Shown here: one piece after another, positions 5,826 through 19,768 of the stretch
Position numbering within the stretch: the first letter of the stretch is position 1
How the letters are laid out: each line of letters starts with the position of its first letter
NCBI GenBank assembly: GCA_000998425.1
Contig: LCDG01000002.1
Coordinates: 1 to 34,910 of the forward strand
Direction of reading: 5' to 3'
Origin: Candidatus Nomurabacteria bacterium GW2011_GWC2_42_20
Lineage (GTDB): Bacteria > Patescibacteriota > Minisyncoccia > Phycocordibacterales > UBA1550
DNA: 34,910 nt
Program-made: the position numbers and the translations under genes
Notes under the pieces: model-generated
Databases searched by the model: none
What the model was told of the DNA's origin: nothing
The model's input: the letters and a program-made list of their open reading frames with translations, nothing else

Positions 5826-6077
5826 TCAAGTGATGCGGAGGTGTCCGCAGAACACTGGGTGTTTCCGAATTTCAGCATGAAACCGCATAGCCCCGCGCCG
5901 AAACATTGATGCAAGGGTTTCTGAGCGGGTGTGATTTTTGTGCCCTGACAAGACGTCAGATGGTGGCGGACTGCCGGTTTTCAAAATATCAACGACACCA
6001 CATGGCGCATCGTGACGAACACGACCGATTTGCTGATGTCCAACTTGCTGGATTTGCCGAACTTCTTTTTTGAGCAT
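5826..6077 (-). CDS. Hypothetical small protein (83 aa)
   Basis: ATG at 6077 preceded by GGGAGAAAGTC (SD); own promoter-like sequence and terminator. Confidence 0.55.
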   Translation of the reverse strand: MLKKEVRQIQQVGHQQIGRVRHDAPCGVVDILKTGSPPPSDVLSGHKNHTRSETLASMFRRGAMRFHAEIRKHPVFCGHLRIT

Positions 6078-6122
6078 GACTTTCTCCCTGTAAAGAACAT
6101 GTCCTCGCACATGCGACAACAG

Positions 6123-6133
6123 ATTCAATTATC
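6123..6133 (-). promoter_or_regulatory. -10/initiator motif GATAATTGAAT of the 83 aa ORF
   Basis: Shared motif with 6499..6509 and 16700..16710; TTGTTT about 17 nt upstream. Confidence 0.45.
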
Positions 6134-6171
6134 CCACAAACAGATACTGAAAACAAGCTTTTTCATGCGAC

Positions 6172-6195
6172 AAAAAAGGCGGCCGTATGGTCGCC
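6172..6195 (-). terminator. Terminator after the ORF at 6240
   Basis: Minus strand GGCGACC-ATAC-GGCCGCC-TTTTTT (one mismatch). Confidence 0.75.
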
Positions 6196-6239
6196 TCTCG
6201 AGGTAGGGTTGTTTTATTTTTATGTTTCAGTCAGTGTTG

Positions 6240-6452
6240 CTATGGGTGGAGACAACCGACACTGCCACTAGATGCAAAGAAGGCATCTCCGCCGACATTG
6301 CGCCCAGAGCTGTTTTCATTGTCCATTTTGCACCCATACAAACAAACTGGCGCTCCGTTGAATGCGAGTACATCTGGGCACCCATGATTTTCAAGATGCT
6401 CTGTCTCGAGGACTGTGTCATCCCCTAAGTTACGGATAGCTATTGCAGGCAT
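6240..6452 (-). CDS. Hypothetical small protein (70 aa)
   Basis: ATG preceded by AAGGGAGAAATA (SD); own promoter and terminator. Confidence 0.55.
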   Translation of the reverse strand: MPAIAIRNLGDDTVLETEHLENHGCPDVLAFNGAPVCLYGCKMDNENSSGRNVGGDAFFASSGSVGCLHP

Positions 6453-6498
6453 TATTTCTCCCTTAAACTAAAAGAACTCTTGAATACACCAAATGCGT

Positions 6499-6509
6499 AT
6501 TCAATTATA
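6499..6509 (-). promoter_or_regulatory. -10/initiator motif TATAATTGAAT of the 70 aa ORF
   Basis: TATAAT on the minus strand; inverted repeat TTGAATAC/GTATTCAA at 6480..6504 overlaps it. Confidence 0.5.
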
Positions 6510-6574
6510 CAAATAGTGCCACTTTTGTGTAAAAATGCAAGGGGGAATAGCCAAAGATCCTTGGCTAAAACAAA

Positions 6575-6681
6575 AACGTTTCATTTTAGATGCAGTACGC
6601 GAAGCAAGTTTTGTTGTTCAACGGAGCCGTACACGAGACAACAAAACGAAACGACAAAGTAATGCGCTAAAATGAAACGTT
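6575..6681 (-). repeat. Long imperfect inverted repeat, family copy 1
   Basis: aacgtttcattttag (6575..6589) / ctaaaatgaaacgtt (6667..6681) perfect 15-nt outer arms, inner gttttgttgt/acaacaaaac arms, apical ggagccgtac. Confidence 0.75.
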
Positions 6682-6685
6682 ATTA

Positions 6686-7191
6686 TTATTTCTTGAAAGG
6701 AACACCGATGATATCGAAAAAGCTGGTTGCCTCCTTTTTATTCTTTGCTGTAGTCACGATAGTAACAGCTAAACCAAATAGATCCTTTACATCCTCATCT
6801 GAAACTTCAGGGAAGATTGTTTGCTCTTTTACTCCAAGCGTAAGGTTCCCCATTTCATCAATACTTTTTCTGTCATAACCACGGAAGTCACGAGTGCGAG
6901 GCGCGCGCCACGTAGAGTCACCGCAACTCCGATCTTGTCTCCCTCACGAAGTTTGAAAGCAGCAATGGATTTCTTTGCAGCACGAAGTGATGGCTTCTGC
7001 CCCGTGATCTTTGCAATTCGCCCCATCACCATGTCGTTGCGATTCTTATCCTTTGAGCGTCCTGTCGTTGCAGACACAACGACCTTTACAAGACGAGGGG
7101 CGGCAAGCTTGGCCTTGTAGCCAAACTCAGTCTTCATTGTATCGAAGGCGCTTGCTTGTCTTTCTTTAACTGTTTTAAATGCAGATTTCAT
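6686..7191 (-). pseudogene. rplE: Ribosomal protein uL5, disrupted reading frame
   Basis: First 112 or so residues in the 6829..7191 ORF; C-terminal part PRTRDFRGYDRKSIDEMGNLTLGVKEQTIFPEVSDEDVKDLFGLAVTIVTTAKNKKEATSFFDIIGVPFKK* lies in another frame, stop at 6686..6688. Confidence 0.85.
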
Positions 7192-10541: not shown

Positions 10542-10563
10542 ATTTACTGACATTTTCTACTTG

Positions 10564-10706
10564 GCTTAGCAAGAACAAACACGAAGACTTTTGCTTTCCC
10601 GTGAAGTCTTGGAGCGCAGAAACCCTTGAGCCGTACTTATTGTACGGCGAAAAGGGTTTCTGTGAGAAAGACGAGTGGGGAGCAAAAGTGGCGTGTTTTT
10701 CGTTAA
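10564..10706 (-). repeat. Long imperfect inverted repeat, family copy 2
   Basis: aaacacg..acttttgct..cagaaaccctt.gccgtac / gtacggc..aagggtttctg..agcaaaagt..cgtgttt around loop ttatt. Confidence 0.75.
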
Positions 10707-10728
10707 GGTAAGTAGAAAAGGTCGGTAT

Positions 10729-11622
10729 CTAGAATTGCTGATATTTTGCCTTACAATCTGCCGGACAAGTAAGGAGTGTCTCGCCTGTATCGCAAACATT
10801 ATTGTTGTTACAACCAGCTGTTGGAGCTGCTGTCGTTTGGCATGTTATCGTCTTGCTGCATGACTGGATGGTTGTGCTCCCACCAACACAGATTCCCACC
10901 CTTACACCAGCAACCGTTTGTGTGGATGGTGGAGCTGTACACGATGAAAGGGCCTGACATGTTCCCCATGTACCAGATGCATCTACGTCTGCTGGAGTGC
11001 ATGGAGGGGCGCCAAGGACCGGCCCAACAGGAACAGTACCGATAAGAGGTGCAAAATCTACCCACCCAACAACACCAGCAACTCCCGCTCCATCTCCACC
11101 TCCCCATGCATATCCTGAAAATTTGTTTGCAGAAATTTTTACACCCTTCCCTGCCCACACACCTACAGTATCATCAGAAAGCTTGATCCAGCCATCCCAA
11201 CCACTTGCTGAACCTACCGCTGATAGAGCGCGAGCCCAACCAGTAACTTTGCCAGTAGACCAATCTACTTGAGCCTTACATGTTCCTGAAGGACATCCGG
11301 CTAAGTCTGTAGCAGAAAAGCTTATCCAGCCAATATTTTCGCTCCATGCGTAACCAGAGAAATCACCAGACCCGCCAGTTGCTTTATTTGCAATATCAAC
11401 ATTCACGCCGTATGAAGTCGTTGATCCGTCGCCAGTGCTATTAAAGCTGATCCACCCAATATTTTCGCTCCATGCGTAACCAGAGACGTTCTCTCCTGCT
11501 CCAGCCTCTGCATGTGGAGCTTTTAGGAATGCTGGGTTCGTAATGTATGCTACGCCAATGAGCATCGCCACGATTCCGATAGCTACGATATTGCGCACCT
11601 GATTGATTTTGAGTGTTTTCAT
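10729..11622 (-). CDS. Secreted surface protein with SGYAWSENIGWISF repeats and Cys-rich C-terminus
   Basis: Start MKTLKINQVRNIVAIG (signal/TM); two SGYAWSENIGWISF units plus diverged ones (FSGYAWGGGDG..VGWVDF); C-terminal CNNNNVCDTGETLLTCPADCK. Confidence 0.88.
   Translation of the reverse strand: MKTLKINQVRNIVAIGIVAMLIGVAYITNPAFLKAPHAEAGAGENVSGYAWSENIGWISFNSTGDGSTTSYGVNVDIANKATGGSGDFSGYAWSENIGWISFSATDLAGCPSGTCKAQVDWSTGKVTGWARALSAVGSASGWDGWIKLSDDTVGVWAGKGVKISANKFSGYAWGGGDGAGVAGVVGWVDFAPLIGTVPVGPVLGAPPCTPADVDASGTWGTCQALSSCTAPPSTQTVAGVRVGICVGGSTTIQSCSKTITCQTTAAPTAGCNNNNVCDTGETLLTCPADCKAKYQQF
11330..11360. repeat. 31-bp direct repeat unit 1 in surface-protein gene
   Basis: ccaatattttcgctccatgcgtaaccagaga, identical to 11456..11486. 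Confidence 0.85.
11456..11486. repeat. 31-bp direct repeat unit 2 in surface-protein gene
   Basis: Identical to 11330..11360, 126 bp (42 codons) apart. Confidence 0.85.
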
Positions 11623-11684
11623 AAATAAATAATTATCTTGCCAATACAGTATAGCACCTAAAAACAAAACAAGTGAAGTGGGGG

Positions 11685-11693
11685 TGTGGATAA
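11685..11693 (-). promoter_or_regulatory. DnaA-box-like TTATCCACA upstream of the surface-protein gene
   Basis: tgtggataa on the plus strand; a TATACT -10-like hexamer follows downstream on the minus strand. Confidence 0.4.
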
Positions 11694-11805
11694 AACAAAA
11701 GATCATGACTACTTTTTATTTATTGTGAAACTCAGCTAGAATACGCAAAAGTCAAAAAAATTGAGAGTGCCAATCGTTTACATATTTCCATATAATATAC
11801 AAATA

Positions 11806-19132: not shown

Positions 19133-19173
19133 ATAAATGATATTTAAAAAAATAATTAAACCACAGCGGTAGA

Positions 19174-19299
19174 AAAGTTTGTTATTTCGAATGCAGTGCG
19201 AGGCGCCGAGTGAGAAAATTGACGAGCTGTACACGAAGTACTGCTCGTCAATTTTCTCACTCGAGCAACGATGCAATGCGTCAAAATTACGAATTTTTT
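19174..19299 (-). repeat. Long imperfect inverted repeat, family copy 3
   Basis: 21-nt perfect core arms 19208..19228 / 19244..19264 (cgagtgagaaaattgacgagc), apex GTACacgaaGTAC, imperfect outer arms reaching the rpsG stop. Confidence 0.8.
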
Positions 19300-19768
19300 A
19301 CCAGGCGAAGTGTGCAAAGGCTTTGTTTGCCTCCGCCATCTTGTGCACATTCTCACGCTTCTTCACTGCTTCGCCCTCGTTGTTGCTTGCGGCAAGAATC
19401 TCGTCCGCAAGCTTCTCGTGCATTGGGCGGCCCTTCTTTGCCTTTGCTGCACTAATTACCCATCGCATTGAAAGCGCAAAGCGTCTATCTGGGCGCACTT
19501 CGTGCGGAACCTGATAGTTTGCGCCACCAACACGACGTGAGCGAATCTCCATAAGAGGCCCTGTATTCTTGAGCGCAAGCTCAAAAACCTCAAGCGGCTC
19601 AAGGTCCTTCTTTTTCTCCTTGATGATATCGAAGGCTCCGTACACGATCGCGCGTGCGGTGTTCTTTTTCCCACGCTCCATCACATAGTTAATAAGCTTC
19701 TCAACTTTTGTTGAATTGTATACCATGTCCTCGCCGGGGATATTACGATTTTTTACTTTTCTACGCAT
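19298..19768 (-). CDS. rpsG: Ribosomal protein uS7
   Basis: ORF 156 aa; [25 protein letters not shown]. Confidence 0.97.

Follow-up and report, generated by a model that had tools for sequence, protein, structure and literature searches.

Three long imperfect hairpins in a ribosomal-protein region are very probably copies of one small, non-autonomous mobile DNA element, which takes the form of a palindromic, MITE-like interspersed repeat and occurs in Patescibacteria. The members of the family are about 128 nt long, with longer forms of about 180-230 nt, and these small mobile DNA palindromes form a family that extends across the phylum of ultra-small bacteria. Patescibacteria are thought to be streamlined, yet this mobile palindrome is spread across the phylum and lies behind core genes such as rpsG.

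Three hairpins behind minus-strand genes

All coordinates refer to the window, the whole 34,910-nt stretch of DNA that was analysed, which is a ribosomal-protein region of a 679-kb genome. The three hairpins and their neighbouring genes are all on the minus strand:

6565..6574, minus strand: T-rich tract TTTTTGTTTT (sense strand) directly after copy 1, read from the sequence
6569..6687, minus strand: copy 1, a palindromic element separating rplE from the gene that follows (model R2 match at 6569-6685)
6686..7191, minus strand: rplE (L5), upstream of copy 1 (NCBIfam L5 match to a 120-aa ORF; frame broken in the assembly)
10545..10727, minus strand: copy 2, a longer (~183 nt) diverged subfamily (arms and models R1 and R2)
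10729..11706, minus strand: 325-aa ORF without family match, preceding copy 2
19170..19299, minus strand: copy 3, abutting the stop codon of rpsG, in the rpsG-fusA interval
19298..19768, minus strand: rpsG (S7), upstream of copy 3 (NCBIfam TIGR01029, E 1.6e-57)

We find self-complementary arms at all three sites, as a preliminary description of this DNA had proposed, and the hairpins are confirmed as real features, with chance excluded by their covariance-model scores. Searching the window with model R2 yielded 112.3 bits for copy 3 (E 4.8e-24) and 67.7 bits for copy 1 (E 1.1e-13), both of which were used to build the model. Copy 2, which was not, scores moderately with R1 (E 1.5e-5) and R2 (E 3e-5). 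Copies 1 and 3 are clear members of the family, and copy 2 is a diverged, longer member of it.

Copy 1 forms its long imperfect hairpin at 6575-6681, starting 4 nt after the rplE stop codon, with outer arms that are perfect at 6575-6589 and 6667-6681 and 90% complementary over 21 nt. Copy 2 starts 1 nt after the stop codon of the 325-aa ORF, has the sense-strand ends TACCGACCTTTTC...GAAAATGTCAGTA and the apex GCCGTACAATAAGTACGGC, and has relatives elsewhere in genomes G011 and G008. The preliminary description had put all copies at 105-145 nt, a range that copy 2 exceeds, with arms spanning 10545-10727. Copy 3 abuts the rpsG stop codon and has an inner arm pair of 26 nt with 96% complementarity.

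At the rplE place, G003 and G009 carry elements that match copy 1 with compensating changes in the outer arms, and most other members of the genus have an ordinary terminator-like hairpin. Judging from the sequence, the outer stem of copy 1 followed by TTTTTGTTTT resembles an intrinsic terminator, and this T-run makes a terminator role for copy 1 plausible. At window 5826-6570, the usual place of rpsN and rpsH, the two ORFs that come after rplE (100 aa and 70 aa) lack a Pfam match, and a terminator-like hairpin occupies this position in other members of the genus, so the spc operon seems to be interrupted behind rplE. The rplE frame itself is broken into an N-terminal 120-aa ORF and a C-terminal part, ending in FFDIIGVPFKK*, in another frame. 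This apparent frameshift may be an assembly error; the counterpart ORFs have 185 aa in G003 and 181 aa in G009. Within the S10 operon, the 325-aa ORF lies between rplB and rpsS; it contains SGYAWSENIGWISF repeats and a C-terminal CDTGETLLTCPADC motif. Most genomes of the genus have homologues of it close to rpsS, about 35-49% identical over long stretches, and G000:C1 (L397:1572-1853) contains a relative of its C-terminus.

Anatomy and distribution of the family

On the sense strand the element is 124-132 nt long, mostly 128-130 nt, and consists in order of a variable outer stem, a conserved internal loop, a variable inner stem and a conserved GTAY...RTAC apex. The outer stem has about 18 pairs and is followed by a stem of 7 positions in which a pyrimidine mismatch is conserved (T.C in 42/67, C.T in 13/67). 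The reach of the inner stem is near-constant, with 28 nt from loop to apex in 41/64, and the apex is made of GTAY, a few variable bases and RTAC, then AKCTTGGTC or AKCTC. The stems total about 45-50 pairs. Long forms of 206-231 nt contain an extra hairpin-forming segment inside the apex (L334, L335, L336, L339:4491-4698, L340, L354, L376). The three copies had been described as sharing only an apical GAGC(C/T)GTAC, which corresponds to the 3′ side of the apex in reverse complement; they also have in common the conserved internal loop, with 5′ CTTYGTTG opposite 3′ CGCCTCG on the sense strand. The string GAGCYGTAC was rejected as a signature of the family, since 11 of its 14 genomic occurrences lie outside long inverted repeats, the remaining 3 being the window copies.

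A covariance model found about 50 copies in 13 of the 16 genomes of the genus, among them three further copies in the window's own genome (C14:10207-10333, C7:21824-21949, C12:15064-15191). In the order, 150 of 397 genomes (72 of 179 genera) have matches at E<=0.001. Across the phylum, 44 of 380 genomes have matches at E<=1e-4, and many of these belong to other classes; copy numbers from these large genome-set searches, in which few candidates were scored per genome, are lower bounds. A gapped pattern with ~23 specified positions matched 30 stretches in about 85,000 species. All matches with informative titles are from Patescibacteria (Parcubacteria, Yonathbacteria, Taylorbacteria, Vogelbacteria), the others being titled just 'bacterium' or 'uncultured bacterium'. 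Viral contigs gave no match to the element, and viral carriage, being unsupported, was rejected. Rfam 15 likewise gave no match above the gathering score; at a permissive threshold, copy 3 returned generic miRNA hairpins that were below threshold. We found no paper on such elements in Patescibacteria in the openly accessible literature, a scope that leaves most subscription papers outside. So far as Rfam and openly accessible papers show, the family is apparently undescribed, in agreement with the initial impression that no described family has this apex.

Recent mobility

Twelve genomes were probed with one mobile-type sequence, revealing bursts of 21 matches in G192, 26 in G152 and 20 in G038. 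The burst copies within each genome are closely similar, in G152 mostly nearly identical, and have unrelated flanks. The ends of mobile copies are TAGGACNTACGC and its complement (TAGGAC...GTCCTA), with TA at both ends in almost all copies. Identical 5-mers directly outside the ends were observed in 21 of the 52 recent copies on which this count rests, compared with a mean of 0.8 and a maximum of 4 in flank shuffles; the copies hugging stop codons mostly do not have the TAGGAC ends. Given the bursts of similar to near-identical copies and the 5-bp target duplications, the family is transposable and MITE-like and has spread recently in several genomes. As in other MITEs, we see a short non-coding palindrome of 128 nt, terminal inverted repeats, a target duplication and dispersed recent copies. 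Selection on a fold had previously been offered as an alternative to a transposable sequence, an opposition that fails here, as the elements are transposable, an outcome that the preliminary description itself had named as speaking against its reading, and not every copy adjoins a stop codon.

The element would be moved as double-stranded DNA by a predicted transposase that recognises its ends, TAGGACNTACGC, and perhaps also its folded core. The search for an autonomous partner was negative: exact motif matches in 5 draft genomes gave no complete-looking inverted pair of end motifs ~0.7-3 kb apart. The same ends also bound other short elements of ~132 nt and one of 302 nt (L258:1181-1312; G192 C14, C15, C26, C35, C55), and their presence on other short elements of G192 points to a shared predicted transposase. 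The interior of the L258 element, GTCATTCCCG...CGGGA, differs from the family, and this is apparently a second miniature element with the same predicted transposase.

An element lies behind rpsG in nine genomes of the genus, the window's genome and eight others. The elements of G001 and G013 are 98% identical at this site, whereas rpsG is 74% and fusA 77% identical. Similarly, the G009 element resembles those of G007 (83%) and G004 (79%), while the rpsG gene of G009 is closer to those of G000, G010 and G013. These mismatches between element and gene identity contradict purely vertical inheritance at rpsG. The history of the element here differs from that of the gene, and the comparison indicates that elements were gained or exchanged repeatedly; covariation at this site reflects the history of the family and not only local selection.

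Compensating changes and the level of constraint

Copies 1 and 3 and their genus counterparts align in the conserved core, and both variable stems change on both sides. In a first alignment, two-sided changes were found in 29 of 47 pairs versus 15.5 in shuffles. A 26-sequence alignment has 41 of 47 pairs varying on both sides and 297 double-changed cells versus 93 when shuffled, and sliding the partner by 1-3 columns lowers the paired cells from 87% to about 40%, although this covariation leans towards structure because the alignment was fitted to the structure. The earlier proposal that the fold is kept while the sequence of the arms differs is borne out by these counts. We do not claim concerted correction of both arms in recent copies, since one-sided changes are present too.

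The kinds of imperfect pair can help to separate constraint on DNA from constraint on RNA. If selection acted on the sense RNA alone, G.U would be expected to be far better tolerated than A.C. Across the three variable stems, G.T was counted 64 times and A.C 58 times in 2,445 cells, and in the diverged class that hugs stop codons the counts are 25 and 21. By contrast, tRNA acceptor stems from the same loci have 14 G.T and 2 A.C. Fisher tests of the contrast with tRNAs give p 0.0076 and 0.033, values that are indicative only, as cells within related sequences are not independent. That G.T is no commoner than A.C suggests a constraint on the DNA palindrome and not on an RNA fold. We therefore consider a palindrome kept at the DNA level, or one in which both strands have a role, more likely than a fold of RNA alone. 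With many copies in which the arms changed and pairing was kept, the family is a natural experiment for this G.T/A.C comparison.

Clustering behind stop codons in sense orientation

Copies of either age, recent or old, are concentrated at positions immediately following a stop codon on the sense strand, as the preliminary description had claimed for the three hairpins of the window. In a first classification of 118 copies, 77 had a same-strand stop codon <=30 nt upstream and 9 an opposite-strand stop <=30 nt downstream, with 5 counted in both classes; the contexts of individual copies can be wrong, as the genes are simple longest-ORF calls. For recent copies, we compared adjacency within 10 nt with random placement in the same intergenic space (20,000 simulations). 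Adjacency to a sense stop was seen 20 times, versus 5.4 expected and a simulated maximum of 14, and antisense adjacency 5 times, as expected. Many copies are not beside a stop codon.

Copies may survive at the 3′ ends of genes because they do least harm there, or because they are of some small help, for example if the hairpin helps to form the mRNA end; copies that lost their mobile ends would likewise persist at these positions with their pairing intact. At some genes (rplE here and rpsG in the genus), the hairpin with its T-run is probably a transcription terminator or mRNA 3′ end. The terminator role suggested earlier accordingly fits only part of the family: a U-run follows the hairpin in copy 1 and several rpsG copies and, by inspection, is absent in many others. 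Mobility alone does not explain the sense-only bias, because both ends are alike. An asymmetric core could steer insertion, or selection could remove antisense copies, and this bias is the point that the mobile-element reading explains least. Copy 2 also counts against that reading, with its different ends and merely moderate model scores.

Alternative explanations and known elements

A more specific version, to which we give rather low confidence, is that a sense-specific mechanism directs the element to the 3′ ends of genes or selectively retains it there, and that a predicted Patescibacteria factor reads the loops and apex and couples the hairpin to transcription or translation termination. 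If so, a domesticated mobile hairpin would serve as a phylum-wide 3′-end module. A native 3′-UTR RNA element, that is, a hairpin bound by a protein or RNase and under selection at the RNA level downstream of highly expressed genes (as terminator, mRNA stabiliser or processing site) and not mobile DNA, would account for the sense orientation directly behind stop codons, the housekeeping genes upstream, the conserved loops and apex, and the T-run after copy 1 and several rpsG copies. It is nevertheless improbable, given the bursts with target duplications, G.T pairs as rare as A.C in contrast to tRNAs, exchange of the element independently of its gene, and the many copies away from a stop codon or without a T-run. 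Still further down in probability are ordinary intrinsic terminators that are merely long. Other genus members do have terminator-like hairpins at the rplE site, but the near-constant 124-132 nt, the conserved internal loops and apex, and dispersal with duplications speak against them, and for the whole family they are refuted by the duplications and bursts; an intrinsic terminator may still describe how copy 1 is used. Integron attC sites are imperfect inverted repeats of conserved fold and variable sequence found directly behind stop codons, all of which is seen here. We regard attC-like recombination sites as the remotest of these readings, as the conserved part here is the core and apex and not the ends, GTTRRRY-type ends were not seen by inspection, and the genes form core housekeeping operons and not cassettes.

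REPs are extragenic palindromes with stems of 5-13 bp, and GTAG REPs often supply the TAG stop (PMC3733652). The present elements are also palindromic, extragenic, near stop codons and able to supply a TAG stop, and 14 of the 16 genomes in the genus contain Y1_Tnp genes. It is nonetheless very unlikely that the elements are REP-like repeats generated by a RAYT-type (Y1 HUH) transposase. No linked Y1 transposase was seen, ten sampled Y1_Tnp loci having no significant element match beside them, and the RAYT/HUH link was rejected on this ground; G003 (91% complete) has several elements and no Y1 gene; and about 45-50 pairs in 124-132 nt differ from the short stems of REP/BIME repeats. In addition, HUH transposition would not be expected to leave 5-bp target duplications.

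The mobile, MITE-like palindrome is nearest in kind to the 127-bp ERIC palindrome, likened here on its published description. ERIC (IRU, RU-1) of enterobacteria is intergenic and MITE-like, with TA termini, target duplications and a highly paired transcript, and its orientation matters for its effect on mRNA (PMC2229807). The size of the intergenic palindrome (~127 bp), the TA termini and the target duplication recur here. Unlike ERIC, our element has Patescibacteria hosts, a 5-bp duplication, sense clustering at stop codons and arms that diverge with compensation across the phylum. The Correia or NEMIS repeats of Neisseria, MITEs of 107-155 bp with inverted repeats and stem-loop transcripts near genes, and RUP, a further MITE-like element (PMC2229807), have been described as well. 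Size, inverted repeats and a stem-loop near genes are shared with Correia/NEMIS; in contrast, the present family conserves its core and varies at the ends of its old copies.

A 5-bp target duplication, as found here, is typical of the Tn3 family. The ends TAGGACNTACGC, however, presumably do not resemble Tn3 ends. TIMEs are Tn3-derived miniature inverted-repeat elements (PMC4133298) and to that extent are similar, whereas the whole element here is one hairpin. We assign the element to none of the named families ERIC, NEMIS, RUP and REP; the general kind, MITE, fits except that no autonomous partner was found. The element also provides a marker for unannotated mobile elements, and possibly for 3′-end signals, in organisms that are hard to manipulate.

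Genes preceding the element

The genes upstream of the element are often core translation or housekeeping genes. rpsG is upstream in six families of the order, and others encode S15, S9, L5, L11, L2, L6, EF-Tu, LepA, EF-P, SSB, FtsE, ATP synthase epsilon, YchF and AlaRS. Some insertions lie within the stop codon, and the duplication repeats the stop (for example TAGTA in L354 and TAGGT in L351); some elements supply the stop codon from their own TAG end. A recurrent neighbour gene of ~310 aa was rejected as a partner, since it resulted from cutting the loci at about 900 nt. In G013, an ORF for a 450-aa beta-CASP nuclease (L163:3125-4474, minus strand) directly precedes an element; by NCBIfam it is aCPSF1 / type VII Cas14-like, below curated cut-offs. 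A homologous 450-aa ORF precedes an element in G009 (L150).
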